From a virus: DNA of 22,611 bases. Location of the stretch: the IMG/VR virus record IMGVR_UViG_3300030380_004024, positions 1 through 22,611 of that record, one strand, 5' to 3'. Shown piece by piece: positions 3,231 to 21,610 of the stretch. A model generated the notes under the pieces. That model made no database searches. It saw nothing but the letters and a program-made list of their open reading frames with translations, and was not told the origin of the DNA. The position numbers and the translations under genes are program-made. Position 1 is the first letter of the stretch. Every line of letters starts with the position of its first letter.

Positions 3231-3563
3231 TTAAGCAGCGTATGTAATAGCGCAGTCGCTTACGTCACCAATAGCAAATTCTTCATTGTCTTTGTCCAAA
3301 ACAATAAATGGATTTTTGCCAAAGTTGATCTCTTCGACAAGCGCCTTGAGAACCTCTTTGATTTTTCCAGAAGTAATCGTCAAAGCGACAACATCGACAT
3401 CGTCCGAAGCGGCGACAGTAGTGATGTCTTGAGGGTTGAAGTGCAGTGCGATTGCAGTCGCAGACGTTGGATCAACACCTCTCAAAGCATCAACTGGATA
3501 AAGCGCTGCTTCACCAGTGGCATCAGCAGCGTCCCCAGTAGAGAAATAAAAATACTTTTTCAT
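3231..3563 (-). CDS. Small capsid-associated protein (hypothetical)
   Basis: A 110-residue protein, the last gene before the terminator, 27 nt after the capsid gene. It begins MKKYFYFSTGDAADATGEAA, is acidic and beta-rich, and ends EEFAIGDVSDCAITYAA. The centre (GKIKEVLKALVEEI) is one amphipathic helix. Short proteins of this kind follow the capsid gene in several marine phages and may be head decoration or completion proteins. No domain is certain. The upstream region has no promoter box, so it is probably co-transcribed with the capsid gene. Confidence 0.7.
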   Translation of the reverse strand: MKKYFYFSTGDAADATGEAALYPVDALRGVDPTSATAIALHFNPQDITTVAASDDVDVVALTITSGKIKEVLKALVEEINFGKNPFIVLDKDNEEFAIGDVSDCAITYAA

Positions 3564-3590: not shown

Positions 3591-5030
3591 TTATCCCTTG
3601 AGTGCAACGTGCTGGTTTGGAGCACGAGTAATCAAGTTAATCTCAGAACGGTAGTGGAACTCTGCAACGTCCTCAGTGATGTTAGTGTGTCCGAGAACAC
3701 CACCACCGCGAACCCAGTGCTCAAGCTCACGAGAGTATCCGTTTGACTCTTTGTAGTTCATCTCCAAAGCAGGAGCCTTAGTTCCTGTACGTGGATCAGT
3801 AACCTGAGTCATTGGGACCATAGCGCCCATGTATTGAGTAGAAGCTCCGAGCAACGTAGGATCGTTCAACAACTTCCAGTCGTGCTTGTGGAACGTGTAA
3901 CCACCTCTGGTGAAGCTCTTAAAGCCAAGCTGAACAGCGAGGTCTGGAGAGTTTTGGAATGCACCAAACTGACCAGCCAAACCAGCTGTAACGCCAGTAG
4001 AGATACCAGAAGCCAACATGTCGTCAAACGCCAAGTCTTGCTTTCTGTTCAAGTAGCAAGCATATTCCGCAGGAGCTCCCTGCTTATCGAGTTCGATGAT
4101 GATGTCATCAAGCTCAGCAAAAGAGTCAATTGGGTTTGCGTTACCACCGCTAGAAACGATACCTCTGCTCTCAACAGCCTCGAAGTAACCTTCAGAGCCA
4201 GCAACACCAGTGATGTTAGAGGCAATAACGTTACTTATTCCTGTGTCTCCGTCAGACTTGTTGGCGAAGAGCATCATCATCTCACGCTTGTCCATGAAGC
4301 GAGCACGAGTCTCCTGCTCACCGTGCATGAACCATCTGTAGTCACCTCCAAGGTTGACCCAGCCAATGTTCGTTGCCTGAGAACCATTTACCTTGTAGAC
4401 ATCCTTGATGATCATGTAAGGGTTGGTACGCAAGGTTGGAGAGGTCTCAACAAAACGTGAGGGCTGCTCAGTACCTTGATCGTAGATGTTACCAACGACG
4501 ATAAACGTACCAGTTGCTGCCAAAGCAACTCCAGAGGTAGCGCCATCAAGACGAGCCAACTCAAACGTACCAGTGCCTGAAGTTGCCGCATCTTTAGGAG
4601 CGACAAAGTCGGAAGCGTTAGCACTTGTAGCCAAGATTCTCCAGCGAGTGCCAGTAGAAGCGTCCATTACGACGTCACCAGCACGGACGAAGATATCAGC
4701 CGCACCGCCAGCGTCAAGAGTTGCAGTACCATCATCATCACCGTCATCAGATGAAACGATAGAACTCCAAGTCTGCAACTTGTGTCTACGCTCTTCTTCC
4801 CAGTACTGAACTTGGTCGGCAGTACCGCCATTTTTAACAGCTCCAGTGAGCTTCAGAAAACCAGTGATACCTTGATCACCGAAAGTTTTGATCAACAGAT
4901 CTCTGTTGTCGGGAGCGTTGTGCTCCAAGAGGGTCCCAATAGTAGTGTACTTCTCAGGAGAAGCAACCATACTGTTTCCAGTTGCCCCAGTAGCATCTCC
5001 ACTAGGACCTGACTGTGAAATAGTAGCCAT
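3591..5030 (-). CDS. Major capsid protein (HK97-fold type)
   Basis: A 479-residue protein that builds the icosahedral head shell. It follows the scaffold gene by 13 nt, the usual scaffold-capsid order. Features consistent with an HK97-type capsid protein are an N-terminal arm, a long helical region around residues 240-260 (ETRARFMDKREMMMLFANKS), a central helix DSFAELDDIIIELDKQG, and a beta-rich C-terminus (EFHYRSEINLITRAPNQHV). Residues 95-185 form an Ala/Gly/Thr/Asp-rich insert starting SSDDGDDDG, probably a surface domain. The sequence resembles crAss-like and other Bacteroidota podovirus capsid proteins. The start is upstream of MATISQ in an AT-rich context without a Shine-Dalgarno sequence. 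Identity rests on length, composition and gene order rather than a short motif. Confidence 0.88.
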   Translation of the reverse strand: MATISQSGPSGDATGATGNSMVASPEKYTTIGTLLEHNAPDNRDLLIKTFGDQGITGFLKLTGAVKNGGTADQVQYWEEERRHKLQTWSSIVSSDDGDDDGTATLDAGGAADIFVRAGDVVMDASTGTRWRILATSANASDFVAPKDAATSGTGTFELARLDGATSGVALAATGTFIVVGNIYDQGTEQPSRFVETSPTLRTNPYMIIKDVYKVNGSQATNIGWVNLGGDYRWFMHGEQETRARFMDKREMMMLFANKSDGDTGISNVIASNITGVAGSEGYFEAVESRGIVSSGGNANPIDSFAELDDIIIELDKQGAPAEYACYLNRKQDLAFDDMLASGISTGVTAGLAGQFGAFQNSPDLAVQLGFKSFTRGGYTFHKHDWKLLNDPTLLGASTQYMGAMVPMTQVTDPRTGTKAPALEMNYKESNGYSRELEHWVRGGGVLGHTNITEDVAEFHYRSEINLITRAPNQHVALKG

Positions 5031-5043
5031 AATTCTTTAGTTT

Positions 5044-6165
5044 TTAGATTTTGAAAGTCATTGTATTCCCTGTGCCGATAATATTTTTAAGTTGTTCGAC
5101 AACAGGAGAAACATTGGGTTGTCCTGTGTTAGGATTGGGTTCTGACACACCAACGTTCGCAGCTTTCTCTACAAGACCTTTTTGACCATCACCGAGCCCC
5201 TGCTTGTAAGCGTTGGCGACGATGTTGTCAATGTTGTCGAGTACAGCCAGGTGAGAGTTGAATGTATCATAATCCCAGCTTCCGTCATCACGGACGTAAT
5301 TGGATAGATAAGAATCGAGGTTGACATTTTGTCTAACCATCTGCTCTCTGTAGTTATCATCGACCCCGTATGTGAATGTTTTTCCATTCCCAAGGTCAAA
5401 CTCCAAACCCTCAAAAGCAGCGGTTTCGTCAATCATGTTATTGACCCAACCCTCATCAAAATAATCTGCCTCCTCCTCCATCTGTTCTTGAATCTCAGGA
5501 GCTGCGTATTCTGATCGAATTTTCTCGATCTCTTGTTTTGCAGCCTGGCCATCAATCTTCATCTGAAGCTGAGACAACCTAATCTCTTCTTCCGTATGGA
5601 TGTCGGGATTAAGCTTGTATTTGCTCTGAAGAAGCACACCGATTTCTTCTGGGGCTAGGTTCTCATACTGAGCGGCCATGTTGACTCTGATAGCAGTCAA
5701 GTCATCCATTTCGGATGGGTTCAAAGACTGATATGCAAACCAATCAGAAGGGTCTCTGCCAGTATCGCTAACGAAATTGGCAATAGCCTCGATACGCTCA
5801 TCAAGAGCATTTTGTTCTACTTGTAAATCTTCAATGCTTTCTATATCCCTACCCAGCTTGTCGCTGATGAAAGAATATACAGCACGCTCAATGTCTTGCT
5901 CAGTATACTGACCATAAGGTTCTTGGTCTTGAGGCGAAGCCTCAGGGTCCACATATGGGGTTTCCTCTGGCTGTGATTCAGCCTGTGAGAAAGACTCTTG
6001 TTGTACCTCAGTCTGCGGTTCAGGTTGAGCTTCAGGTTGAGCTTCAACTTGAGGTTCCGACTGTGTTTCTTGTTGTGGCGTTTCCGCCTGATTCATAGAT
6101 GCAGCAAGGTCCTCAGGATTACTGAAGACCTTCATACCGCCAATCTCTTCGATTGTATTTTCCAT
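5044..6165 (-). CDS. Head scaffolding protein
   Basis: A 373-residue, strongly acidic protein placed just upstream of the capsid gene, as scaffolds usually are. Residues 27-85 are a low-complexity Gln/Glu/Pro tract with the repeat EAQPEAQPEPQ. Residues 86-240 are predicted helical and charged (EEEIRLSQLQMKIDGQ, then AAKQEIEKIRSEY), suiting a coiled coil. Residues 300-340 continue with helices, and the C-terminus (VSPVVEQLKNIIG) is a short helix of the kind that binds capsid protein. Scaffolds co-assemble with capsid protein in the procapsid and leave before or during packaging. No protease domain is seen. The assignment rests on composition and position. Confidence 0.75.
   Translation of the reverse strand: MENTIEEIGGMKVFSNPEDLAASMNQAETPQQETQSEPQVEAQPEAQPEPQTEVQQESFSQAESQPEETPYVDPEASPQDQEPYGQYTEQDIERAVYSFISDKLGRDIESIEDLQVEQNALDERIEAIANFVSDTGRDPSDWFAYQSLNPSEMDDLTAIRVNMAAQYENLAPEEIGVLLQSKYKLNPDIHTEEEIRLSQLQMKIDGQAAKQEIEKIRSEYAAPEIQEQMEEEADYFDEGWVNNMIDETAAFEGLEFDLGNGKTFTYGVDDNYREQMVRQNVNLDSYLSNYVRDDGSWDYDTFNSHLAVLDNIDNIVANAYKQGLGDGQKGLVEKAANVGVSEPNPNTGQPNVSPVVEQLKNIIGTGNTMTFKI
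6019..6054. repeat. Three tandem 12-nt units inside the scaffold gene
   Basis: Two identical copies of TTCAGGTTGAGC and a third diverged copy (TTCAACTTGAGG) lie head to tail. On the minus strand they encode the EAQP-type repeat of the scaffold's disordered N-terminal tract, so copy number can change in frame. Confidence 0.85.
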
Positions 6166-6186: not shown

Positions 6187-6579
6187 TTATCCTTTTTGTC
6201 TGGGAGCAAAATAGCAGATGCAAGTTCCGCTATGAAGCTCCACATAGTCCCACCTACCGTAGATAATGAGACCCGCTGGGAACGTAACCCCAGATGCTCC
6301 AACAGTCAGATCCACCGCATTTGCAGCCGCTCCAAAACCGCTGGTAGCATTATCATGATCGTTCTCAGCGGTCACTGTGCTCACCGATCCAACCTCCCCA
6401 TTCATATTCTCTAGAGCTTGAAATTGAGTACCTGCAAGAAACTGAATAGCAGCGATGTATCGCGTAGCGCTACCACCATTCAAGTCAACATTAGCCCCGT
6501 CACCAGTAATGAATGAAGATCCAAACTGGCCAAAGGCCATCATATTCGCTGTTGAAGGTTGTGAAGTATTATCAGCCAT
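6187..6579 (-). CDS. Small virion structural protein (hypothetical)
   Basis: A 130-residue protein between the tandem beta proteins and the scaffold. It starts MADNTSQPSTANMMAFGQFG, has YIAAIQFLAGTQFQALEN in the middle, and ends VTFPAGLIIYGRWDYVELHS then GTCICYF. The 'G.FGS.F.TG', 'AIQFL...F..L' and 'FP.G..IYGRW..V.L.SG' pattern recurs in small head-region proteins of marine phages. It is beta-rich, with no signal peptide or enzyme motif. A head decoration or fibre-like role is an inference from this pattern and from position in the capsid operon. Confidence 0.7.
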   Translation of the reverse strand: MADNTSQPSTANMMAFGQFGSSFITGDGANVDLNGGSATRYIAAIQFLAGTQFQALENMNGEVGSVSTVTAENDHDNATSGFGAAANAVDLTVGASGVTFPAGLIIYGRWDYVELHSGTCICYFAPRQKG

Positions 6580-6589
6580 GTCTTAATTA

Positions 6590-7009
6590 TTACGTTCCTG
6601 AACCTCCGAAGATTACTGAAGAGTTGTCGTTTCCAAACACACCGTACTCAATCAAGGTGTCAACCCTTGTGGCATATACTGCGACAGTCTTGTCTACAGC
6701 AACGGGGATGAATGCAAACTCACCACCCCCAATCTTTGCAGAGAGAGCGGAATCGCTTTCGGTTTCGTTTCTAAGATAAATGTAGTCCTCAAGCTCTCGC
6801 GCAAGGTTTTTAATATACAGATATGCCCTCTCGCTCTTGTCGTTAGCGAGATAGACAATCATATCATTCGTGTCTGCAGCCGTGCCTTTTACTTTGGCTC
6901 TAATCAAAGACCCAGAGTCTACGTCCAAATCTACACTAGCCCGAAGGCTGAGATTTGAGCTAAGGACATCGTCGCTTGCCAGTGTTAAACTTGCTGAAAG
7001 AGTAGCCAT
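6590..7009 (-). CDS. Small beta-rich virion protein, most diverged of four tandem paralogs
   Basis: A 139-residue protein whose start overlaps the previous stop (TAATG). It shares the MATLSASLTLASDD start with its three upstream neighbours and keeps the core YLYIKNLARE...YIYL and the GGGEFAFIPVAVDK segment, equivalent to the 'GDWAF.PY' segment in the others. The C-terminal extension NDNSSVIFGGSGT is unique. The fold is probably a small beta sandwich. It is likely a capsid decoration or minor head protein, inferred from location and lack of enzyme motifs. Confidence 0.72.
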   Translation of the reverse strand: MATLSASLTLASDDVLSSNLSLRASVDLDVDSGSLIRAKVKGTAADTNDMIVYLANDKSERAYLYIKNLARELEDYIYLRNETESDSALSAKIGGGEFAFIPVAVDKTVAVYATRVDTLIEYGVFGNDNSSVIFGGSGT

Positions 7010-7410
7010 TATTCGTGCATTAGCATGTATTCGACAGTAAGAGCAGAGCTTACACTTGGAGTGTATTTGAAATCATTTGTATCAGCATCAGCGCCGTAAG
7101 GCAAAAAAGCCCAGTCACCTGCGTAAAGCCTTCCAATAGCCTCTGAGTTCATAATAATTGTAATAAACTCTGAAGCTGTGGTGCTGAGGTTTTTGATGTA
7201 AATCTTCCCAGCCATATTGTCCGTATACTCAGATCCGTCAAATAGAGTCACAGTAGCTGTGGAAGAAGTAGTCTTTCTCGCAAGACCAGTGGTTTCAGTC
7301 AATCCAGTTGACGTACCTGCCTTTGTAAGAACCGCTGTGGTGGCCAAAGCAAGCTCGTCAGACGTAAGATCAGAGCTGCTGAGATTCAATGATGCTGTTA
7401 TTGTAGCCAT
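7009..7410 (-). CDS. Small beta-rich virion protein, tandem paralog 3
   Basis: A 133-residue member of the tandem family. Shared landmarks are MATITASLNLSSSDL at the start, TKAGTSTGLTETTGLARKT, DNMAGKIYIKNLSTTASEF, and GRLYAGDWAFLPYGADAD, ending TVEYMLMHE. It is closest to the next gene upstream (7421-7819). It sits 10 nt downstream of that gene and overlaps the next one by one base, so the array is probably a single translation-coupled block. Confidence 0.75.
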   Translation of the reverse strand: MATITASLNLSSSDLTSDELALATTAVLTKAGTSTGLTETTGLARKTTSSTATVTLFDGSEYTDNMAGKIYIKNLSTTASEFITIIMNSEAIGRLYAGDWAFLPYGADADTNDFKYTPSVSSALTVEYMLMHE

Positions 7411-7420
7411 GTCTTAAATC

Positions 7421-7819
7421 TTAGCCTTCGTGAAAAATTCCAAACTCGTAAGACATGCCATTGTCTGAAGTAGTAGCCTTGATATCTTCGGTGCCGTCAA
7501 ATGGGATGAGCATCCAATCATCAGGAAAAAGTCTTCCAATGATTACATTAGATCCAACCTCCATTAAGATGAAAGTATCAGCACCAGTGGTAGACGTATT
7601 CTTGAAATACAGCTTACCAGCCTGATTGTCAGCATAATCACCAGCCGCAACGATTGAAATGTCAGCCGTAGCTGAATCTTTCTCAACTCTCGAAATGCCA
7701 GTGAACTGCGTCAAGCCCACACTTGATCCTGCCTTCAAGAATGTAGTAGAAGCAGAAAAGGTAGCACCTCCAGTAAAGTCTGGAGCGCTTAGAGTAAGTG
7801 TTGCTCTTGTTGTTGCCAT
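7421..7819 (-). CDS. Small beta-rich virion protein, tandem paralog 2
   Basis: A 132-residue protein, MATTRATLTLSAPDF at the start, with KAGSSVGLTQFTGISRV, DYADNQAGKLYFKNTSTTGA and IIGRLFPDDWMLIPFDGTED. These segments align without long gaps with both neighbours, pointing to gene duplication. The C-terminus (SYEFGIFHEG) matches the VEYMLMHE end of paralog 3. No cysteine or catalytic residue set is present. The probable role is capsid decoration or a minor head protein. Confidence 0.76.
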   Translation of the reverse strand: MATTRATLTLSAPDFTGGATFSASTTFLKAGSSVGLTQFTGISRVEKDSATADISIVAAGDYADNQAGKLYFKNTSTTGADTFILMEVGSNVIIGRLFPDDWMLIPFDGTEDIKATTSDNGMSYEFGIFHEG

Positions 7820-7831
7820 TTTGGTTCTTTA

Positions 7832-8245
7832 TTACGATGCGGCTGATTGAGAAATTACAGCAAACTCTACAGTGACGCCTGCATCACTAGTGTCAATGTC
7901 AATATCCAACGTCCCGTCATATGGGAAGAAGCACCAATCCCCAGGATAAAGTCTACCCAAAGGCTCGTTTGCACTAGAATCAATATCGACTGTCACAAAC
8001 TTGGTCCCAGAAGTGTTTGCATTTCTGATGTAAACCTTGTGAGCAACAGTAGTATCTGCGTAGTCAGCGGCAGCGATGATGTTTTTATCACTTTGAGCTG
8101 CAGAAAAAACAAGAGTGGTTACTCCTGTAAACTGATCCAAACCAGTGACATTCGAGTCTGCCTTTGTCAAGATTGCAGTACTGTTGAGGTTTGTTGCATC
8201 CCCAGTAATATCACTAGTAAGTGTTATGCTTGCTGTTGTTGCCAT
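7832..8245 (-). CDS. Small beta-rich virion protein, tandem paralog 1 (first of the array)
   Basis: A 137-residue protein with its own promoter box 18 nt before the ATG. It has the family landmarks: MATTASITLTSD, TKADSNVTGLDQFTGVTTL, DYADTTVAHKVYIRNANTSG and GRLYPGDWCFFPYDGTLDI, ending VTVEFAVISQSAAS. As the first gene after the promoter it heads the unit that continues through the tandem copies, the scaffold and the capsid gene to the terminator at 3181-3210. High expression would be expected of capsid-associated proteins. Confidence 0.77.
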   Translation of the reverse strand: MATTASITLTSDITGDATNLNSTAILTKADSNVTGLDQFTGVTTLVFSAAQSDKNIIAAADYADTTVAHKVYIRNANTSGTKFVTVDIDSSANEPLGRLYPGDWCFFPYDGTLDIDIDTSDAGVTVEFAVISQSAAS

Positions 8246-8275: not shown

Positions 8276-8494
8276 TTATTTCTTTTTGCCCTTGCCACTC
8301 TTGCCTGCTCTGATTTTAGCAGCTTCTTTTCTTCCAAAATCAGATTTTACTCTTGCCATAGCCCAGGCATGCTGAGACACTTTGGGTCTATTACCAGAGC
8401 TCATATAAGCAGCTAGACCTCTTCGATACACTTGTTTTTGTGCAGCGTCAAGGCCAGACATCCCCCCACCTTTCTTAAACTTCTTGACTTTCAT
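8276..8494 (-). CDS. Very basic mini-protein (72 aa)
   Basis: Begins MKVKKFKKGGGMSGLDAAQK and ends KIRAGKSGKGKKK, with a central NRPKVSQHAWAMARVKSDF. Similar 'HAWAM.RV..F' small proteins occur in marine phages, without known function. It is the last of five basic genes in a row and its start overlaps the previous stop (TAATG). Charge and position suggest a packaged, DNA-contacting or capsid-lumen protein, but this is only an inference. Confidence 0.65.
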   Translation of the reverse strand: MKVKKFKKGGGMSGLDAAQKQVYRRGLAAYMSSGNRPKVSQHAWAMARVKSDFGRKEAAKIRAGKSGKGKKK

Positions 8495-8682
8495 TACATA
8501 CCCATAATTTTCTTGGCTCTAGCTCTTTGCTTTGGGTCTTTCAAAAGGGCCTGCATAAGGCTACCACCATCTTTGTAAACTTTGCCGCCAGCCATATACA
8601 TTGGCATCTTACCGCCTCCTGGCATTTTTTTAGCCATTCGCATGCCTTTCATTCCAAGGCCCTCCTTTTTTTTGTGATACAT
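8494..8682 (-). CDS. Very basic Met/Gly/Lys-rich mini-protein (62 aa)
   Basis: The sequence is low complexity: MYHKKKEGLGMKGMRMAKKM, followed by PGGGKMPMYMAGGKVYKDGG and a helical end LMQALLKDPKQRARAKKIMG. About a quarter of the residues are Lys or Arg, and Met is unusually frequent. The 'GGKVYKDGG' element is a hallmark of small basic phage proteins of unknown role. The start context is AT-rich, 4 nt after the upstream stop. Coding is supported by its tight packing between two similar genes and the TAATG link to the next. Confidence 0.62.
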   Translation of the reverse strand: MYHKKKEGLGMKGMRMAKKMPGGGKMPMYMAGGKVYKDGGSLMQALLKDPKQRARAKKIMGM

Positions 8683-8686
8683 ATTG

Positions 8687-8956
8687 TTAGATTTTATCGC
8701 GTTGTTTCATAAGTCTTTTGAGTCGAGCTTCTACAGCAGGTGGAAACCCTTTCTTTTGTCTTTGTGATTTGGTTCCTCTGTGCTTTTTGTATATGTCAGC
8801 AATCTGCTGCATAAGCCTTTTTCTCTTAGCTACATCGGCACTACCCCGTGTATACTTCGGATTGAACTTCATGCCTTTCTTAGCAGACTTGGGTTTCTTG
8901 CCAGCCTTCTTCATGGCAATGGCAATAGCCGCTTGTTGTGCTAAATTTTTAGACAT
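8687..8956 (-). CDS. Very basic mini-protein (89 aa)
   Basis: Starts MSKNLAQQAAIAIAMKKAGK, followed by a Lys-rich stretch (KKPKSAKKGMKFNPKYTRG) and a long basic helix (AKRKRLMQQIADIYKKHRGT, then VEARLKRLMKQRDKI). Its start overlaps the previous stop as TAATG. The Lys/Arg content and helical C-terminal half resemble small internal virion or nucleoid-like proteins, but I recognise no family. It belongs to the basic block between portal and capsid modules. Confidence 0.64.
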   Translation of the reverse strand: MSKNLAQQAAIAIAMKKAGKKPKSAKKGMKFNPKYTRGSADVAKRKRLMQQIADIYKKHRGTKSQRQKKGFPPAVEARLKRLMKQRDKI

Positions 8957-9213
8957 TACTTCTTTGGGTGATTTACCAATTTGAAGTCTGCCTTAGGCAC
9001 GGCACCTGGATGTGGCTTGTATTCTCCTTTCATGAGATAATATCTCCCATCCTCAAGCATCCAATGGTGTCCTTTTGGCGGGTCAATAGCTACCTTTTTG
9101 TTTGAGATAGAAAGCTTTGGAGCCTTTTCTCCTTTCTTAAGAACCTTCATGCCTTTTTGAGCCTTGGGTGGTCTTCCTACTTGATCTCCATATGTACCTT
9201 TTCCTTGTGGCAT
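8956..9213 (-). CDS. Basic small phage protein with KGTYG...GRPPK motif (85 aa)
   Basis: Starts MPQGKGTYGDQVGRPPKAQK, a leader known in small marine-phage proteins of unknown function. The middle is Lys-rich, and residues 49-70 (HHWMLEDGRYYLMKGEYKPH) form the most conserved-looking part. The GRPPK stretch is AT-hook-like. The start is in an A-rich context (TTAAAATAAAAAAT before ATG) 10 nt after the 102-residue gene. No enzyme motif is seen. Confidence 0.66.
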   Translation of the reverse strand: MPQGKGTYGDQVGRPPKAQKGMKVLKKGEKAPKLSISNKKVAIDPPKGHHWMLEDGRYYLMKGEYKPHPGAVPKADFKLVNHPKK

Positions 9214-9223
9214 ATTTTTTATT

Positions 9224-9532
9224 TTAACAGTTCCACTTTCTTAGAGCTTTGTTGATACGAGAGTTTGGATCTCTCGCAGTCTTTGCACTGGTTAATCTTT
9301 TCTTCATCCCCTTCATTCGAGCGCAGAAAGACTTACGTCTCTTTGCAGCTTTGCTGCCAGCCTTGAGCTTAGAAGGTTTAGTCGTAACGGCAGTCTTTAG
9401 CTTGCTGCCAGGATTGGCTGCGCGATATCTCCTGACACCTTTTGCCGTCAAGCCACCAGAAGCGGACTTATCTCCGCTCTTTACAGAAAACTTTTTGGGC
9501 ATTCTGCCCTTTCTTTTCTTTACTCGTGGCAT
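9224..9532 (-). CDS. Conserved basic phage protein with KSFCARM...KALRKWNC ending (102 aa)
   Basis: About one residue in three is Lys or Arg. The C-terminal half, KRRKSFCARMKGMKKRLTSA and then DPNSRINKALRKWNC, matches a small conserved protein I know from many phages (a DUF6321-like family) with two conserved cysteines near 'SFCARM' and at the 'WNC' end. Function is unknown. It is the first gene of the basic block. The promoter box lies only 4 nt before this ATG, so the mRNA is probably leaderless if this start is right. A second Met at residue 11 would give a leader of about 30 nt. Confidence 0.8.
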   Translation of the reverse strand: MPRVKKRKGRMPKKFSVKSGDKSASGGLTAKGVRRYRAANPGSKLKTAVTTKPSKLKAGSKAAKRRKSFCARMKGMKKRLTSAKTARDPNSRINKALRKWNC

Positions 9533-9695: not shown

Positions 9696-10142
9696 TTATG
9701 CAAATCTTGTTGTCACGTCTTCATTAACGATAAACGAACCTCTAACCCATGTTTGCACATTATCTATTGCGCCACCAATAATGGTGTTTGCCTGCAAGTC
9801 GTATACATAGACACCACTTGCAATTTTAGACATTTCCTCAGCAGTGATAACTATTCTAATCTTTCCGTCAGAACCGTCTGATGTCACGTTTTCAATAGTT
9901 ACGTTGCTAACCCTGTCCCTGCGTGCATTGCTATTGGTTGAAAGTCTTGAGTTATCTCCGTCATCGGTTGCAAAGTCTCTCACTTCAAAGCTAAAAGTAT
10001 AAACAGGAACAGCACCGTCTATATCACCAACATTGATCACGGTGCCAGTGGAGTCCTTAAAAGTTAGGAGCAAACGAAAAGTATCACCCCTACGACAAGT
10101 TATGTCGAGCTTTTGAGCTACGTCTAAATTTACTGAAGACAT
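9696..10142 (-). CDS. BppU-N-like small virion protein (148 aa)
   Basis: The start overlaps the portal stop by one base (TAATG). The protein opens MSSVNLDVAQKLDITCRRGD, followed by TFRLLLTFKDSTGTVINVGD, then TFSFEVRDF and GVYVYDLQAN, and ends VQTWVRGSFIVNEDVTTRFA. The 'D.T.RRGDTF...LTFKD..G...' start and the 'YVYDLQ......W..G.F.V..DVT' end resemble the N-terminal domain of BppU-type baseplate/virion proteins, a beta barrel used for attachment. Placement right after the portal suggests a head-tail or minor head protein. The domain call is from pattern memory. Confidence 0.68.
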   Translation of the reverse strand: MSSVNLDVAQKLDITCRRGDTFRLLLTFKDSTGTVINVGDIDGAVPVYTFSFEVRDFATDDGDNSRLSTNSNARRDRVSNVTIENVTSDGSDGKIRIVITAEEMSKIASGVYVYDLQANTIIGGAIDNVQTWVRGSFIVNEDVTTRFA

Positions 10143-12577
10143 TATCTGTTTATCATTAGGTTGGGTTGAATATCATCCTGTACAGGACCTCTCTCTCCTT
10201 TTCTCTGAGACATAAGTTTGCTTTGCTCTACCGCTTGCTTTGTCACTCTCTTGTCCTTGCGATCCTCTTTGAACGTTTCAAGCTTTTCTCTAAACTGCTG
10301 ATCGTCCTCCTTGAATCCTAGAGTAGCCTGTGCCTTGATGATCTCAATCTCTTTTCTCATCTCGTGCAAAGCTTGAGCAACTTGTATCTCACTTTGCGCC
10401 TTGAGTTGAATCTTCTGAGCCTCTAGCTGAGCTTCTGCTTGCATCTTTTGAGCTTCAACTTGAGCTGCAGCTTGCTGTTGTTGCATCGCCATCTGTTGCT
10501 GCTGCTGAGCCATCTGCTGTTGCTGCTGCATAACCTCGGCCTTTCTCTTCTTTCTCCTTACAATAAGAAGTCTCTCTGCTTGATTAACATCTTTCAAATC
10601 TCTTATGGCCATAGCATCCTCTAGATCTATTTCTTTCTGGCCCAGAGAAATTTGAATCATCTGCTCTATCTCAGCCTTCTCTCTTTGCTCCATCTCTTTC
10701 ACCACGGTAACACCGAAGTTGTACATCTTGAGATCGCTGAAAGATGAAAGCACTTTCATGTTTGCCTCTCCAACGGCATTTTGGTAAACCTTGAAAAGAA
10801 CCGACTCCATTGGCAGTATCTGAAGACACTTTACAACATCCTGACACACCTGCTTAAACAGAGTCATAGAGGCATCAGTGATGTCGTATGTAGCGTTGTT
10901 GCTTGCCTGGATAGCTTGCTCTCTAACTCCCACCAACGCATCAGACTTTGGTGTAGACCCGTCAGTAACCTCATTGATACCCGTGGTATCTCTGATAAGT
11001 CGTAAGTAGTGGTTGTACAAGCCAATAAGCTCGTTGATGTTTCTGATGCTGTTTCCGATCTCTCGGATAGGTGGGTTCTGAAAACCACCATCTGGATTTT
11101 TGCTTCTATAGTAGAAGACACCAGTCTGCTCGTAAATATCATGGAGATCGAGAGGCTGAAGCTCACCAGCTTTACCAAGCTGTACGTTCTCCAATCCTTC
11201 AATATCAATGATCAAGCCATCAGGCTTTGCCTTGGCTATGGCCTGTTGAAGCTTCAGGTGAGTAATCTGAAGCATATCAGCAAAGCCGATGCAGCTGTCA
11301 ACCATTGACTTGGGAACCATGTCCCTCAAGTTCGCCGCCGAAACCGAGTATGAAAGCTTGGCTTTCGATATGTCATGAGCATTTTTGGGAATGTTCATAT
11401 TCTTCCCGTACCCATACAGATGCTTCGTGTTCAGGACATAGCTGCCTCCGTAGATGCATTCAACCTCCATCTTGTATGGAGTGCGCTTAAATACACTGCC
11501 TTGCTTTTCCCTGTATTCAAACCCCTTGAAATAGAATCCGCTGTTGCCGAATCTATTCTCCTTTTCCTCGAAGTAAATGCACTCAACTGACTTGTACTCA
11601 AAGTCTAAGACTTCAACCAGATACTCATCGTAGTCATAAGTGTTTCTCTTAGACATCTCATCGTATCTTCTCTTGTGAAGATTCGCGCTGTTGTTTCCGT
11701 ATTTGCCAGACACAGACTTGGCGATCATTGCAAAGTCCTCTTCAGTAAGATCGTCACCCGCAAGCCTCTTCAGCTCTTGTATAGTAATCTTCTTGATATG
11801 ACCAGCATAAGACAAATCCTTGAATGAAGGATCATCTGTAAAGCTGTGAACAAAGTTGGATGGATCTACATACTCGGTAGCAATACCATAGTTTGGATCG
11901 TTGTGTCTTTTGACTACGGCCATACCGCAGATAGCCACATCGTTTACGCATCTTCTAAACGTAGAATCAAAAAAGTCTGACCAATTAAGAGTCAGATTTA
12001 TACCAAGCTGAGCAGCAATCTCTGCATCGGTCTTGATGTTTGTCCCCATAAAAATCTCAGCCTCTTCCAGAGTATCAGGAATCTCAGAAGGATCTTTCTT
12101 GATGATAAGACCAGACTCTTCTTTGAGGATTTCAAGCTGCTTTTTTGCTTTGACCTCTGCCTCCATCCTCCTCTTCTTCTTGTCCTTCTCCGAGGAAGAC
12201 AGGGGGTCTATCGCTTCAACGTTTGGATAGGGGCTTTTAGAAAGCACGTTGTTTGCTACAATCCGAACAAACTTGGGAAGTATTGGAACTGGAGTAAAGT
12301 CCAGGTTCAACAAAGTTCCATCAGAAGCATTGTTGTCAAGACCCGTAAGAAGTTTTTTGTAGATCGTCGTGTCTTGTGTACCATTGGCATACTTGCGATT
12401 CTTATCAAAAATCTCATGCCTTCTTCTAAATACAGAATGTCTGTCGGCAACACTACCCCACTGGGCCTCTATAGCTTTTGCATACTGCAACCCATAACCC
12501 TTTGACGCTTTTTCTTCGGGCGAAGCCAAGGGATTGGGAAAGCTCGTTCCAGTCCTGGTTCCGCTTTCGTTATACAT
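10142..12577 (-). CDS. Portal protein
   Basis: An 811-residue protein forming the dodecameric DNA channel at one head vertex. Residues 40-120 hold the N-terminal part (FRRRHEIFDKNRKYANGTQD), 195-260 the clip-side beta region, and 505-565 the conserved segment IRNINELIGLYNHYLRLIRD, TGINEVTDGSTP (532-543) and ALVGVREQAIQASNNAT, very like portals of crAss-like podoviruses. Residues 677-811 are a Gln-rich, coiled-coil tail (run of Q from about 684 to 706). It is longer than the usual 500-600 residues, as in that group. The box at 12598-12605 supplies its promoter and terminase lies just upstream. Gene order and length agree. Confidence 0.93.
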   Translation of the reverse strand: MYNESGTRTGTSFPNPLASPEEKASKGYGLQYAKAIEAQWGSVADRHSVFRRRHEIFDKNRKYANGTQDTTIYKKLLTGLDNNASDGTLLNLDFTPVPILPKFVRIVANNVLSKSPYPNVEAIDPLSSSEKDKKKRRMEAEVKAKKQLEILKEESGLIIKKDPSEIPDTLEEAEIFMGTNIKTDAEIAAQLGINLTLNWSDFFDSTFRRCVNDVAICGMAVVKRHNDPNYGIATEYVDPSNFVHSFTDDPSFKDLSYAGHIKKITIQELKRLAGDDLTEEDFAMIAKSVSGKYGNNSANLHKRRYDEMSKRNTYDYDEYLVEVLDFEYKSVECIYFEEKENRFGNSGFYFKGFEYREKQGSVFKRTPYKMEVECIYGGSYVLNTKHLYGYGKNMNIPKNAHDISKAKLSYSVSAANLRDMVPKSMVDSCIGFADMLQITHLKLQQAIAKAKPDGLIIDIEGLENVQLGKAGELQPLDLHDIYEQTGVFYYRSKNPDGGFQNPPIREIGNSIRNINELIGLYNHYLRLIRDTTGINEVTDGSTPKSDALVGVREQAIQASNNATYDITDASMTLFKQVCQDVVKCLQILPMESVLFKVYQNAVGEANMKVLSSFSDLKMYNFGVTVVKEMEQREKAEIEQMIQISLGQKEIDLEDAMAIRDLKDVNQAERLLIVRRKKRKAEVMQQQQQMAQQQQQMAMQQQQAAAQVEAQKMQAEAQLEAQKIQLKAQSEIQVAQALHEMRKEIEIIKAQATLGFKEDDQQFREKLETFKEDRKDKRVTKQAVEQSKLMSQRKGERGPVQDDIQPNLMINR
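10463..10528. repeat. CAG/CAA triplet-rich tract in the portal gene
   Basis: On the minus strand a run of mixed CAG and CAA codons interrupted by ATG and GCC encodes three Gln clusters (QQQQQMAQQQQQMAMQQQQ). Mixed codons suggest selection for glutamine rather than simple slippage. Confidence 0.85.
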
Positions 12578-12627: not shown

Positions 12628-14745
12628 TCACATCTTATAACGCCTAAAAAACTTCTTATCTATAAAGTTTGACTGCACTTTTTTTGCCTTAACCTTTTGA
12701 GCACCAAGCAGTGCCAAACCCGAACTAATCGTAAGGTCAAACTTAGTTCTATCGGTTATCTTGAATCCTATCCAGTCCTCAAGGGTTCTATTGAAATACA
12801 TCTTCCCCATCATGCCAGTTTCGTAATGCAAGCCAACATGATCGTGTATGTAGGCTTCAATTGCCTGAGCATGAGACTGAATGACATCCTGAGAGTTTGA
12901 CGGGATTCCTTTGGTCTTTGTTTTTATGGTAGAATTTGTAGACATCAAATGCTTAGGTCTATCCATTAAGTATCCATCGTAACCTCTTGTCTCAAAGTAT
13001 CTTGCGATGCCGTACTTATTGTTTTCGATTAAGATAGGGTACCCGTAAAACACCGCAGCCATCAAGACGTCTTCGTAGAAGATCTTAGCCAAAGGTGGAC
13101 GGGACGCATACTCCAGCACAAACATGTTTGATGGGTGCTCCATATGAAACTTGTTGTACAGGTGTAGCGCTCCCTTAGACCCCCGCCCATCGACGGTGGC
13201 ATCAAGGTCGTAAGAGTCAACCCCGCCTACCCCCAGCTCTGCATTTGGGGCAATACGCTTGTTACGCTCGTAAAGCTTTTTGTTTCTGAGATCATCAGGG
13301 GGCATCCATGCCACACGGAATCTACCGTTTGGATCAGGCTTGAAAAAAACCTCTGTATCTTTTTGTCCGTCTTTCCAGTGAAAGTTACCTACCACTACTG
13401 GGTTAGGGAAAAGCTCTTCGTTGTACTGAATTTGCTCGTATATCTTACCTATGTTAAATAGGCTACTGTCAATACTATCCCTAAAAGCCTCATCTTCAGT
13501 AAAGGGGAACTGCCTAGTTATCTCATTCAGCTCAGATGCATCATGCTTATAACTGTTTCTTTCATTCTTCAGGTACGTCTTTGATCCCTGATGAATGCTA
13601 TCACCATCAATACCAGGCAGAACTTCACTAGGATCTTCAATGACTGCAAATCCATGTTTATCAAAGAAACCTTCCAAAGCGTCATAAGCAGGTATGAATA
13701 AGCGATAGAGACCGCTTCTAGTTCTTCCATTTGCGTTTCTATCAGTGGGGTTTGAATCAGCCCAAAGGTCTTTGTATTCCTTACCGCCCTTATCCATGGG
13801 GTTCACAGTAGAACCCACCATAGCTTTTCCCACAATCTTGCGCCCCACAATAAGGCACGTGCGCTGAATCCTCCAAGCATCACGAATATCCGTCGGCCTC
13901 TCCCACTTACCCGCCTCATCGAGATACAATATGTGAAGCTTTTCTCCGTCATACGCGTTGTTGGTAGTATTCTTCCAGTTAATTACCGTATTAAGAGCCT
14001 CTCCCGTCTGCGTAGTCTTATTTTTCTTCGTGATTCTCTTACTCGGCTCGCGAAAAGCCAACTCCATGCGTGGGTTAGTGGTACCATCTTGAATGGGTTT
14101 GAAGAAGAAGGGGTAGTGGCGGAACATGTATACCACCTTCTTCATGAATATATTCTCTTGCGCGTCCTTACCAGTCTTTGACTGGATGCCAAGGAGTTTG
14201 TCCTTGACTTGGGTCGCCTCGTCTAGCAGCACAGACGAGCAGATATTCGTGTATCCGCTACGTCTGCACTTGGTATAGAGCTGCCCGATACATCGGGGAT
14301 CCGCCTCACACGCTGCTAAATGTAAGAAAATATTTCTTTGGAACTCAAGAAAGTCTGGATAGCCTATATCCATTCGAGTCCACTGGAGCATCATATAGTG
14401 CCTACCCGTAATATATGTAGGGACACCGTTATTATAAAACCAAAAGCCTTCACGCCTACGGCGAAACTCCTCTTCGATATACGGAGAAAACTTTTCTCGA
14501 AATTCCCTAGGCATCTCCCCCCACTCATCCATAGACTTAATCCGAGACAACTCCTTTGGCATAGGAATCCTCTCCCACAACTGCATGTAGTCTGGATTTC
14601 CATGTCCGACAATTTCTTCTTCGGAAGGCTGAGCGGGAAGTAAAATGACCAACCCACCAAGTTCAATACTTTCACCCTTCGTACCCTTGGGGCAAATTGA
14701 GATAGCAGGCTCATCATATTCTTCTATCTGTACTAGCGTAGACAT
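12628..14745 (-). CDS. terL: Terminase large subunit (packaging ATPase and nuclease)
   Basis: A 705-residue packaging motor that drives DNA through the portal and cuts it. The N-terminal ATPase domain has a Walker-A-like CRRSGYTN (160-167), which lacks the usual lysine of GKT/S, Walker B ILYLDEA (272-278) and the coupling motif GSTVN (311-315). The C-terminal RNase-H-like nuclease has D510 in GVGGVDSYDLD, E574 in ILIENN and probably D670 in KFDLTISSG. It starts 10 nt after the tRNA-Arg gene in an AT-rich context without a Shine-Dalgarno sequence. Length suits Bacteroidota podoviruses. Portal and capsid genes follow. Confidence 0.95.
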   Translation of the reverse strand: MSTLVQIEEYDEPAISICPKGTKGESIELGGLVILLPAQPSEEEIVGHGNPDYMQLWERIPMPKELSRIKSMDEWGEMPREFREKFSPYIEEEFRRRREGFWFYNNGVPTYITGRHYMMLQWTRMDIGYPDFLEFQRNIFLHLAACEADPRCIGQLYTKCRRSGYTNICSSVLLDEATQVKDKLLGIQSKTGKDAQENIFMKKVVYMFRHYPFFFKPIQDGTTNPRMELAFREPSKRITKKNKTTQTGEALNTVINWKNTTNNAYDGEKLHILYLDEAGKWERPTDIRDAWRIQRTCLIVGRKIVGKAMVGSTVNPMDKGGKEYKDLWADSNPTDRNANGRTRSGLYRLFIPAYDALEGFFDKHGFAVIEDPSEVLPGIDGDSIHQGSKTYLKNERNSYKHDASELNEITRQFPFTEDEAFRDSIDSSLFNIGKIYEQIQYNEELFPNPVVVGNFHWKDGQKDTEVFFKPDPNGRFRVAWMPPDDLRNKKLYERNKRIAPNAELGVGGVDSYDLDATVDGRGSKGALHLYNKFHMEHPSNMFVLEYASRPPLAKIFYEDVLMAAVFYGYPILIENNKYGIARYFETRGYDGYLMDRPKHLMSTNSTIKTKTKGIPSNSQDVIQSHAQAIEAYIHDHVGLHYETGMMGKMYFNRTLEDWIGFKITDRTKFDLTISSGLALLGAQKVKAKKVQSNFIDKKFFRRYKM

Positions 14746-14755
14746 TATTTAATTG

Positions 14756-14829
14756 TACACCTGTCAGGACTCGAACCTGAAACCTACGCATTAGAAGTGC
14801 GTTGCTCTATCCTGTTGAGCTACAGATGC
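14756..14829 (-). tRNA. tRNA-Arg(UCU)
   Basis: A 74-nt cloverleaf on the minus strand: acceptor GCATCTG/CAGGTGT (with two wobbles), D-arm GCTC/GAGC, anticodon stem ACGCA/TGCGT with loop CTTCTAA (anticodon UCU, reading AGA), T-arm TCAGG-TTCGAGT-CCTGA, discriminator A. No CCA is encoded. It sits between the lipoprotein gene and terL, 9 nt from the former and 10 nt from the latter. Phage tRNAs often supply codons rare in the host; AGA is common in this window. Confidence 0.95.
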
Positions 14830-14838
14830 AGCGAAGGA

Positions 14839-15003
14839 TTAGACGCAGTCAGGACATTGTGGCTCACCTAGGTTTCCAATGTCTGGAAATGATGGGCCCT
14901 GCTGCTTCCAATCGTGGTAGCGGTGGTGCTTTCTCACGGTAGAGTGAGGGGCGCAGCTAGAGAACAAAAAGGCAATTGAGAGTAGAGTAAAAATAAATTT
15001 CAT
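14839..15003 (-). CDS. Small lipoprotein (54 aa)
   Basis: ATG at 15003 overlaps the stop of the metallopeptidase-like gene (ATGA) and the frame ends with TAA at 14839-14841. It reads MKFIFTLLSIAFLFSSCAPH, a short basic n-region, a hydrophobic core and a lipobox L-F-S-S-C17, so it should be lipidated at Cys17 in the inner or outer membrane. The mature part is only 38 residues with a His/Arg cluster (VRKHHRYHDW) and a C-terminal CPDCV. Small phage lipoproteins can be Rz1-like spanin subunits or block superinfection; neither is shown here. A chance ORF with such a signal peptide is unlikely. Confidence 0.8.
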   Translation of the reverse strand: MKFIFTLLSIAFLFSSCAPHSTVRKHHRYHDWKQQGPSFPDIGNLGEPQCPDCV

Positions 15004-15629
15004 GAACGCAAATTAGATTGAATCGCCCTCAAAAACAACTTTTTCTGTTTGTCGGTAAGATTTCCTTCTCTCATTGCAGACCTCAAAAGCCTAAGATTTG
15101 TGTTGGTATCCTCTGCGCCTATAGCATCAAGCATTCTTGATACATCATCAAAACCCCCAGAGAAATCAAGACCCTCAGCTTCCTTTGACGACAGAGCAGA
15201 TCTAAGAATTGCTTCAAACTCAATCGGGTCATCAATCATATACTTTAAAGGACTAAAATTTTTCTGAGGAGCGTAGAATACAGCATTTGGATCGGAGTCT
15301 CTCATGCGATCATCCAAGGCTTCATAGTCTGAAGGATCCATGGTGAGAGCAAGTCGCCTAGCGGCTCTTCTTATACTTCTGTCTTGAACTCTGCCATCGG
15401 CATTCAAAAGGGCAGCTAGTGGTCCAAACTGTTCAGCATGAATCATCTCATGCTCTATTACAGAGTCATCTACACCAGGATTAGCAACAATTTCTCTTGT
15501 ATCAGGATTGTAAAAAGCAGAGACACCCTCTAGCATCTCTCTCTCTTGATCGTTCATCGGTCCTCTAGCGCCTTTAACTCGACCCCTCCTTCTGCGGGCT
15601 CTTGCTTCTTTTCCAATAATCGGTCTCAT
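15000..15629 (-). CDS. Putative HExxH zinc metallopeptidase
   Basis: A 209-residue protein starting in an ATGA overlap. Residues 1-22 are very basic (EARARRRRGRVKG). A zincin motif HEMIH (H60, E61, H64) lies in VIEHEMIHAEQFG, and DPIEFEA (residues 134-140) offers a plausible third zinc ligand at E137 or E139, a spacing seen in small phage and toxin-type metallopeptidases. The rest is helical. Possible roles are maturation of virion proteins or action on a host target. Motif presence is seen directly; the catalytic role is an inference, and no signal peptide is visible. The lipoprotein gene starts at its stop codon. Confidence 0.72.
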   Translation of the reverse strand: MRPIIGKEARARRRRGRVKGARGPMNDQEREMLEGVSAFYNPDTREIVANPGVDDSVIEHEMIHAEQFGPLAALLNADGRVQDRSIRRAARRLALTMDPSDYEALDDRMRDSDPNAVFYAPQKNFSPLKYMIDDPIEFEAILRSALSSKEAEGLDFSGGFDDVSRMLDAIGAEDTNTNLRLLRSAMREGNLTDKQKKLFLRAIQSNLRS

Positions 15630-16665: not shown

Positions 16666-16906
16666 AACTCATAAAAATAGGTGTTTTCTCTCCGACATAA
16701 GATCCAACAATATTGAAGTCTGCATGCTCTACAGCGTCGTTATAGTCCATACCTTCTTCTACAAGTATCTCTATTACTCTATCTATATCGTACACAGCAA
16801 CCACATTGGCACCATACGTGCATCCAACAAGGGCGTCGTCAAATCCATCAGCAGTAAGGCATTCTTCCTCTGCGAGGATCTCCATCAAGTCTTCTTTATC
16901 AATCAT
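16655..16906 (-). CDS. Conserved acidic phage protein (83 aa)
   Basis: Begins MIDKEDLMEILAEEECLTAD, followed by GFDDALVGCTYGANVVAVYD and DRVIEILVEEGMDYNDAVEH, and ends IVGSYVGEKTPIFMSFVV. The pattern 'FDDA..G......VVAYD.D..IEILV.EGM...DAVE...N..G.YVG..TPIF' recurs in many marine and cyanophage genomes as a protein without known function. It overlaps both neighbours (4 nt with GroES, 11 nt with the coiled-coil gene), showing a tightly coupled operon. Confidence 0.78.
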   Translation of the reverse strand: MIDKEDLMEILAEEECLTADGFDDALVGCTYGANVVAVYDIDRVIEILVEEGMDYNDAVEHADFNIVGSYVGEKTPIFMSFVV

Positions 16907-17490
16907 TCTTCCACGTATAAGAGATCTTCCTTTCGTGTTCTATAGTACTCCTTATCGTCTATCTTGATGCGATAGTCTCGGTTCTGCTTGAAGCCAACCA
17001 CGTCCCCCTGCTTCAATCCAAGCTCCTCAAGCCAAGGAGCCTCAAAAGCGACACGACCCTTTGTTGGTAAAGCCTTTTTAAGTTCGACAACTTCGATAAC
17101 ATCTGAATTTGTTTTGAGTTCCTCCTGCTGTACAGGCTCAAGGAGGGCCCATCCAGCAAGGGGATGTATGTGTCCACTTTTTGAACTCTTATATCCAATC
17201 GCCTGATTGTTTATTGTGTGGTCTGGATCGTACCTAACCAGGTAATGGTTTTCATGACCAGTCAGTGCTTGACCCTCATTAAGCACGACAAGATGATGAA
17301 AGTACAAAGTATCTCCAGGTTTAACTCCTGTGTTGTGTTTGACAGGAGGGGATACCACTGGTCCCTCAGTCACTCTATGCTCAAACTCATTGAAACGAGT
17401 ATCCACATAAAGCTCAAGACCACCCTCGGTGGTCATGGTGTCGTTAAGCTGCTTTTCTAGCTCTACGACAAATAGATCAAGTGTCTTCAT
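16903..17490 (-). CDS. GroES-like co-chaperonin with two Cpn10-type halves
   Basis: A 195-residue protein. The C-terminal half (110-195) has GWALLEPV, a linker that may act as mobile loop (121-145), then GRVAFEAPWLEELGLKQGDV and EYYRTRKEDLLYVEE, the layout of Cpn10. The N-terminal half (45-100) has GVKPGDTLYFHHLVVLNEG, resembling a second Cpn10 barrel without an obvious mobile loop. Phages such as T4 (Gp31) encode GroES substitutes so that host GroEL folds their capsid protein; the same use is likely here. Bacterial GroES is about 95 residues, so this is double length. It overlaps the 50-residue gene by 14 nt and the next gene by 4 nt. Confidence 0.78.
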   Translation of the reverse strand: MKTLDLFVVELEKQLNDTMTTEGGLELYVDTRFNEFEHRVTEGPVVSPPVKHNTGVKPGDTLYFHHLVVLNEGQALTGHENHYLVRYDPDHTINNQAIGYKSSKSGHIHPLAGWALLEPVQQEELKTNSDVIEVVELKKALPTKGRVAFEAPWLEELGLKQGDVVGFKQNRDYRIKIDDKEYYRTRKEDLLYVEE

Positions 17491-19186: not shown

Positions 19187-20125
19187 TTATGTGATAGAAT
19201 AGAATCTTTTGGCATTGTTGTGCATATCTAAAGCATCATCAGATCTATCATTTGTATATACAACTACCTCCTGCCACTTAGCGTCACCGCTCTGGCCATC
19301 ATTACCACCACTGTGACCATTTATAATGTTGCCTGAAGACAGTGTACCAAAGCCAGCGGTTCCAAAGGCTTGAGTCTGAGCAGATCCGTTTAGGAAGAGT
19401 TTGACTGAGTCTACACTTGTTCCAGCATCTTGAGTAGACCCGTCCCATGTAATCAAGACCGACTGCTGGTCATGGTTGCCCGTCTGACCACTCAAGAATC
19501 TTACGAACTTAGAAGCAACATTGTTTGTTCCAATAGAGTACTTAGTGTAATTATCTGGGCTAAGTCCAGAAGGAGGTAAAACCATTCTGAACAGGTTTCG
19601 GAAGTTTATCATCGAAATAAAGTTTCCGCTACCAGACTTTTGGGTAGTCTGCGCTATAAAGAACACAGAGCTTGCCGCAGGGGTAGAATAATTTGAAGAG
19701 TTTTCAAGGTGTTGCTGAGCCGAAGCGGTAAACTCTATACATGGTTTGCCATTCAAAGAAATAACAGCATCGCCTGACCCATCATATATAGTTGGTTGGT
19801 TTCCTGCAGTAGCCTGCACAAAGTCGTTAGATCCAATCTGATCATACCACTTGGCCACTGTGCAGCTAGTAAAAGTATCAGGGTCAGTACCAGTTTTAGC
19901 AAACGTCCGAAGGGCTGCTACATCTAACTCACCATCGCCGTTGAAGCCGATATCGCTTTCTGAGCTATCGTTTCTTCTTCTGACCCTAACACAGGGCCCT
20001 AAATAAGATTCCGATAGCTTTCTAATAGAATATGCAGCCACGGGTGCTGCCCCAAAGTCATCCGCAAAGAGAGTCTCAATAAAAGATGAGTAATGAGTCG
20101 ATGTACCTAGACCGAGACCAATCAT
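19187..20125 (-). CDS. Tail spike/fibre-type protein with arabinofuranosidase-B-like and lectin-like domains
   Basis: A 312-residue protein whose start overlaps the endolysin stop (ATGA). Residues 30-115 hold AAYSIRKLSESYLGPCVRVR, then DIGFNGDGELDVAALRTFA and AKWYDQIGSNDFVQAT, a clear match in pattern to the alpha-L-arabinofuranosidase B domain (PF09206) found in many phage and bacterial surface proteins. The remainder (120-312) reads as a concanavalin-A-like/LamG beta sandwich: PCIEFTASAQQHLENSS, SVLITWDGSTQDAG, KLFLNGSAQ and KWQEVVVYTNDRSDD. It likely binds or trims cell-surface polysaccharide as receptor-binding protein. No signal peptide; catalytic residues cannot be confirmed. Confidence 0.78.
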   Translation of the reverse strand: MIGLGLGTSTHYSSFIETLFADDFGAAPVAAYSIRKLSESYLGPCVRVRRRNDSSESDIGFNGDGELDVAALRTFAKTGTDPDTFTSCTVAKWYDQIGSNDFVQATAGNQPTIYDGSGDAVISLNGKPCIEFTASAQQHLENSSNYSTPAASSVFFIAQTTQKSGSGNFISMINFRNLFRMVLPPSGLSPDNYTKYSIGTNNVASKFVRFLSGQTGNHDQQSVLITWDGSTQDAGTSVDSVKLFLNGSAQTQAFGTAGFGTLSSGNIINGHSGGNDGQSGDAKWQEVVVYTNDRSDDALDMHNNAKRFYSIT

Positions 20126-21184: not shown

Positions 21185-21610
21185 TTAAGCAGCAGCGAAT
21201 ACCTCTACATCACAGGTAGCTGTATCTGCTTGGATAGCAACTGAGTCAATATTTGCAAGTGACACTGAGGCCCCACCTGCGGCATTTGCATCCATAGACT
21301 GATTATTCAAGATAAAGCTGTCACCAGCTTCAAGCTTTACAAAATACTCTTCGTTGTTTCCTCTAACACGTACAGTAACGAAGTTGCTGCTGTCAAGATT
21401 GGTGAGTCTCAAGTAGTCGAGAGTACCGTCTTTGATGGTACCAGCTGCTACAGCAGAATCGAAAAGCAACACGGTCTGTTCTGCAGAGTGAAGGCAGCTC
21501 ACAATCCTGTGATCAATCTGAGTTACCGTCTCTGTATGTGTGTTTGTAGACCCACGAGAAGCACCATTGAGTGACACTGCTTCTGTTATAGTTACCGTAA
21601 GTGTTGCCAT
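21185..21610 (-). CDS. Small beta-rich virion protein related in layout to the tandem array
   Basis: A 141-residue protein that starts MATLTVTITEAVSLNGASRG and contains LDYLRLTNLDSSNFVTVRVR, EYFVKLEAGDSFIL and a C-terminal strand CDVEVFAAA. The sequence 'MAT..' start, a '.YLRLTNLDSSNFVTV' strand in place of 'KIYIKN.S...F', a '..L.AGDSF.L' segment in place of 'GRLY.GDW.F.P' and similar length suggest a distant relation to the array at 6590-8245. It has a promoter box 4 nt upstream of the ATG, predicting a leaderless transcript. The virion role is an inference. Confidence 0.72.
   Translation of the reverse strand: MATLTVTITEAVSLNGASRGSTNTHTETVTQIDHRIVSCLHSAEQTVLLFDSAVAAGTIKDGTLDYLRLTNLDSSNFVTVRVRGNNEEYFVKLEAGDSFILNNQSMDANAAGGASVSLANIDSVAIQADTATCDVEVFAAA

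Follow-up and report, generated by a model that had tools for sequence, protein, structure and literature searches.

Four adjacent genes (A–D) on the minus strand of a 22,611-base IMG/VR virus record, which derives from an uncultured marine phage and which we call the window, encode real, anciently rooted, separately conserved paralogs of one protein family. We think it somewhat probable that these are small virion-surface proteins with a jelly-roll fold, most likely decorating the capsid as cement or outer-surface proteins. Neither this family nor that of a remote relative, E, encoded elsewhere in the window, has a PHROG or Pfam assignment. The analysis gives this conserved, putatively virion-borne two-component family a predicted fold, an account of how its copy number changed, and a role open to testing.

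Four tandem paralogs and a remote relative

The initial annotation listed five related open reading frames, and all are present on the minus strand: A (7832..8245, 137 aa), B (7421..7819, 132 aa), C (7009..7410, 133 aa), D (6590..7009, 139 aa), and E (21185..21610). It described four or five in a row; four are adjacent, whereas the fifth lies ~13 kb away and has its own family. The start codon of D, the last gene of the array, overlaps the C stop by one base, and the A–B and B–C gaps measure 10–12 bases, a spacing that resembles one transcription unit. Searching the window with B returned A (47% identity, E = 3.5e-26) and C (43%, E = 8.2e-23), in keeping with their description as paralogs; D was too diverged for a direct match. 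Profiles nevertheless placed D in the same family, as had been claimed. A model built from A/B/C-type relatives alone recovered D (E = 2.8e-7), a D-only model recovered C (1.1e-9), A (1.9e-6), and B (0.0023), and profiles of the two types aligned with a probability of 97.6% (E = 2.7e-12). Among 14,858 shuffled ORFs used as a control, none matched any of the three family models. These two-way matches, together with the control, rule out D as an unrelated lookalike. We refer to A, B, and C as lineage U and to D, the second ancient lineage of the family, as lineage D. The segment 'GRLY.GDW.F.P', annotated as common to all four genes, occurs in A–C (in B as GRLFPDDWMLIP) but not in D, which has 'AKIGGGEFAFIP'. 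The neighboring gene F (6187..6579, minus strand) was considered as a sixth copy and rejected, its profile being unrelated (hhalign probability ≤0.35% against A–D).

Sequence databases offered little beyond the family itself. None of A–E reached a Pfam cut-off (best E = 0.04), known decoration families included, and for no PHROG did matches exceed 2 of 80 or 1 of 26 alignment members (best E = 0.001). A tblastn search of 50,697 phage records gave no match for B or E and one match at E = 1 for D, and a sequence search of the PDB gave nothing better than E = 0.3.

The annotation of A–E as small beta proteins agrees with their lengths (132–141 aa) and with structure prediction. B (80 aligned sequences, pLDDT 90.0, pTM 0.82) and E (26 aligned sequences, pLDDT 83.8, pTM 0.76) are both modeled as ten-strand jelly rolls with the same strand order, a fold assigned to A, C, and D by homology. 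A Foldseek search of the PDB with the B model gave nothing below E = 0.001. The closest solved structures to the two models are Ena subunits, followed by cupins and other jelly rolls at Z 7–9. The closest viral model to E is A0A516LPY4 (52% identity), which the B model also matches (E = 2.7e-4). Four proteins of Virus NIOZ-UU157 are matched by B and E alike; a literature search traced this virus to two papers that give its name and no more. These structure matches support a jelly roll for the modeled proteins, without showing function.

E had been proposed as a distant fifth copy, and it is indeed a remote relative of A–D. Its profile aligned to that of A–D with a score of 35.4 (probability 68%). 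Among the controls, 100 column-shuffled alignments reached 19.3 at best, the reversed alignment scored 10.3, and 11 families of the same loci, all unrelated, scored at most 18.3; an unrelated lookalike is thus ruled out. The A–D profile also picks up the E genes of two further sequences (G017 and G018). E belongs to the same superfamily as A–D, and its own family has 79 members in our locus pool. The E profile found a match in none of seven contigs of distant relatives, in a search run without a positive control.

Copy number and history of the two lineages

Iterative searches of 5,449 ORFs yielded 202 members of the A–D family, all at E ~1e-35 or below, and the next match was E of the window (E = 0.0028). 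Our capsid-seeded sample, which comprises the nearest 80 of 258 matches and leans toward the window's own group, contains 35 non-redundant loci in which both the portal gene and the capsid gene are present. Of these, 26 have two copies, six have four, two have three, and one has a single copy. No copy was detected within the stretches of sequence of loci L062 and L077. Enlarging the pool with loci obtained from U-type and D queries brought the family to 532 members. Each was classed as U or D by whichever of two models gave it the higher score (narrowest margin, 3.5 bits), and we compared arrays in 132 distinct loci with at least 1.3 kb on both sides, after dropping shorter flanks and repeated identical protein sets. 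The arrangement U,D accounts for 105 of them, U,U,U,D for 15, the window included, and U for six; U,U,D and U,U were each found twice, and D,U,U and U,U,U once each. Given the predominance of U,D and the 15 loci with U,U,U,D, we regard the array of the window as an expanded version of a conserved two-component (U+D) module.

A tree that includes the window separates 67 D rows from 92 U rows by one branch with support 100, at a split where long branches meet and from an alignment (159 rows, 142 columns) with few columns for that many rows. The branch between the two lineages measures 2.29 changes per column, a length that bears on whether the paralogs might be largely redundant duplicates kept for dosage and sharing one common binding site. 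A and B, adjacent, of similar length, and 47% identical, would suit such an account, but both U and D have been kept in 105 of 132 loci despite the long branch between them, and A, B, and C are each separately conserved under the strong purifying selection seen throughout A–D (dN/dS 0.02–0.08). We accord this explanation only the slightest chance.

A tree built without the rows of the window gathered the second copies of four-copy loci into a single group, and likewise the third copies (supports 89 and 91). The D copies of these loci did not group in this way, and the branches starred in that tree force at least three changes; the U triplet therefore moved between lineages, or A/B copies were repeatedly lost. 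In the 159-row tree, the window's C groups with long C orthologs (support 80). The C orthologs of most other four-copy loci bear a ~100-residue domain inserted toward the C terminus, between the strands at B model positions 102–106 and 113–117, for which searches of Pfam and PHROGs with the long orthologs gave nothing at cut-off or credible. A loop that accommodates an added domain of this size is expected of an outward face.

Gene neighborhood and selection

The minus strand of the window carries genes for a terminase large subunit (12628..14745, phrog_6681), a portal protein (10142..12577, phrog_6547), a probable scaffold or prohead protein (5044..6165, assigned by its position beside the capsid gene), and a major capsid protein candidate (3591..5030; phrog_13704, 4e-110), along with two further matches to virion structural proteins. 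In the window and in its group, the array has a head-module position, flanked by the portal gene on one side and the scaffold/capsid genes on the other (portal, small basic proteins, U(,U,U), D, F, scaffold, capsid); in this group the placement between portal and scaffold was seen in loci where both genes could be examined. Compared with the capsid proteins of cultured phages of Flavobacterium, Cellulophaga, and Maribacter and of an uncultured spring podovirus (85 records), that of the window shows 27–31% identity, a kinship from which we infer a host among marine Bacteroidota.

Several other genes in this region merit description. Between the portal gene and the array, five consecutive genes (8276–9532) encode small, very basic proteins, possibly DNA-binding head proteins; one of them (9224–9532) matches several PHROGs of unknown function. 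A tRNA-Arg gene (anticodon tct, 14755–14829) lies ~10 bases upstream of the terminase gene on the same strand, and the run upstream of the terminase includes a GroES-like protein (16903–17490; phrog_13932, Pfam Cpn10), as in cultured kin. The protein encoded at 15000–15629 has no Pfam match at cut-off and contains an HEMIH stretch, which we take to resemble the zinc-peptidase HExxH motif.

The proximity of the scaffold gene would also suit proteins that act in assembly only, as chaperones or scaffold partners absent from the finished virion, and our literature searches yielded neither virion proteomics nor cryo-EM on any family member. Against this, the jelly-roll fold came without a chaperone match, a ~100-residue loop domain is tolerated, and tandem copies recur; we consider an assembly-only role highly improbable.

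Gene context in more distant relatives raises a different alternative, namely that A–D are tail- or neck-associated accessory proteins, either jelly-roll fiber or whisker subunits or carbohydrate-binding adhesins, that are encoded in the head module by chance here. In three distant relatives with capsid proteins 36–38% identical to that of the window (G023, G025, and G026), the A–D family lies outside the head module, about 30 kb along the contig from the capsid gene, with three genes each in G025 and G026 and one in G023. The G025 copies, ~31 kb from the capsid gene, are flanked by an ORF of 747 aa and by another that weakly matches tail fibers, near an M15 endolysin. This is the kind of place that E occupies in the window, where it is found upstream of M15 endolysin and terminase genes; most E loci likewise have the gene in one run with M15 endolysin, GroES-like, and terminase-side genes. 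One E relative (L163) has a tail protein gene on one side and, on the other, a gene for a 1093-aa protein that matches tail fibers in part. Other E relatives point to the head: those of L164 and L165 follow shortly after a major head protein, that of L148 lies three genes after a portal, and the E profile matches gp062 of the cultured Flavobacterium phage immuto_2-6A (YP_010114621.1, hypothetical; 4.5e-21), which is flanked by capsid and PhoH genes on one side and a putative head completion gene on the other, within a T4-like head cluster. The head context of the immuto_2-6A, L164, and L165 relatives, together with the portal and scaffold genes on either side of the array in the window's own group, leads us to consider a tail or neck role unlikely, though it retains some weight. 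Also beside the M15 endolysin of the window, a gene (19187–20125) encodes a protein of 312 aa that partially matches the arabinofuranosidase B catalytic family, with a score (29.4 bits) above the Pfam cut-off.

The paralogs had further been suggested to reflect diversification of surface-exposed proteins, an idea that substitution patterns do not support. Between the window and its relative L007, dN/dS is 0.027 for A, 0.059 for B, 0.046 for C, 0.059 for D, and 0.063 for E, as compared with 0.140 for F, 0.116 for the scaffold, and 0.376 for the major capsid protein; portal dS is near saturation in this comparison, and the capsid gene has a low dS (0.20) that suggests mosaicism, which calls for caution with its high ratio. 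Relative to L009, identity is 75% for A, 76% for B and D, and 54% for C, versus 59% for the capsid, 63% for the portal, and 44% for both the scaffold and F, which puts A, B, and D among the better-kept head-module proteins and C less so. On the basis of these values, we reject the view of A–D as diversifying surface proteins. 

Variability is found elsewhere in the module. Directly after the capsid gene, a small protein (3231–3563) is 40% identical to its L007 counterpart and belongs to a separate family, of which relatives carry between one and four copies, in tandem or fused (up to 805 aa); it suits the term diversifying far better than A–D. Differences between the window and L007 capsid proteins fall mainly in residues 81–160 and 241–280 (52–69% identity per 40-residue block, 82–100% elsewhere), a variable and perhaps exposed insertion. 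F, beside the scaffold gene, varies among relatives in sequence and in length (~82–206 aa).

A probable role at the virion surface

Gene order, conservation of the U+D pair, jelly-roll models, purifying selection, the head context of E relatives, and the loop insertion in C orthologs all support capsid decoration by A–D. A capsid-only reading has against it the G025 genes beside a weak tail-fiber match, the L163 E relative beside a tail protein, the lack of A–D family genes in the stretches of cultured kin that were examined, and the absence of sequence matches to known decoration families. On balance, putative capsid binding appears likely. The conserved pair leads us to infer that A–D form two or more specialized subunit types, by heteromery or by site specialization; heteromeric decoration and distinct sites on one capsid had both been put forward, and the pair, present in 105 of 132 loci, fits either. 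If A–D decorate the capsid, U and D subunits would bind an HK97-type shell, either together in mixed oligomers or separately at two distinct sites of the lattice, with edge strands pairing between subunits. The extra U copies may have taken over further shell positions, and E, as a remote cousin, could occupy the head or tail of the same virion. More speculatively, non-interchangeable paralogs might build one heteromeric outer layer or a short capsid appendage by Ena-like beta-sheet augmentation, with U+D as a near-obligatory pair and A, B, and C adding positions, so that one family would be specialized to several lattice sites of one HK97-type capsid; we regard this elaboration as quite doubtful. 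Were A–D capsid-bound, tandem duplication would have raised the number of surface subunit types in one phage lineage from two to four, and U, UD, UUD, and UUUD would offer a natural series for studying the specialization of decoration proteins to lattice sites.

The accessible parts of PMC7150772, PMC12796354, and PMC11821841 describe no case in which a single jelly-roll family has two to four paralogs in tandem, and a partial survey of the literature on tandem or duplicated decoration proteins found no description of the A–D family. Phages of Flavobacteriaceae assigned to Elemovirus and Callevirus (Pervagoviridae) and Baltivirus (Pachyviridae) share the terminase–portal–scaffold–capsid order, with capsid proteins 27–31% identical over the matched part, and a profile search detected no A–D family gene in the stretches examined. 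The phage immuto_2-6A is an unrelated myophage in which, unlike the window, one copy is seen (gp062), and it gave no match to the A–D profile.

The best solved fold for both B and E is that of the Ena subunits of Bacillus endospore appendages (PDB 7a02, 9i0y, 8pdz); 7a02 aligns to B with Z 10.0 (rmsd 3.1 over 94) and to E with Z 10.5 (rmsd 4.7 over 92). Ena subunits join by beta-sheet augmentation, according to the part of PMC8619143 that we consulted. Identity to B and E is 10–13%, there is no sign of a pilus here, and A–E have no Pfam match to the Ena sequence family to E = 1. Ena1A/B carry an N-terminal connector with disulfide-forming cysteines, whereas A–D lack cysteine in their first 30 residues, and B, C, and D have none at all. 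A comparable beta sandwich is found in the trimeric cement protein of KHP40 (PDB 7dou), which aligns to B with Z 7.2 (rmsd 2.8 over 96) and to E with Z 7.0 (rmsd 3.8 over 96) at 8–10% identity, and a Z below 8 can mean a common arrangement only.

T4 Soc is a capsid decoration protein, and like it and T4 Hoc, gp33 and gp20 of Sf14, and the decoration and linker proteins of phage 7-7-1, A–D are small, beta-rich, and encoded among head genes. The premise that phages usually need one decoration protein proves too strong: within the portions of the sources available to us, Sf14 (PMC11821841) and phage 7-7-1 (PMC12796354) each have more than one kind of head accessory protein, two or three in number.
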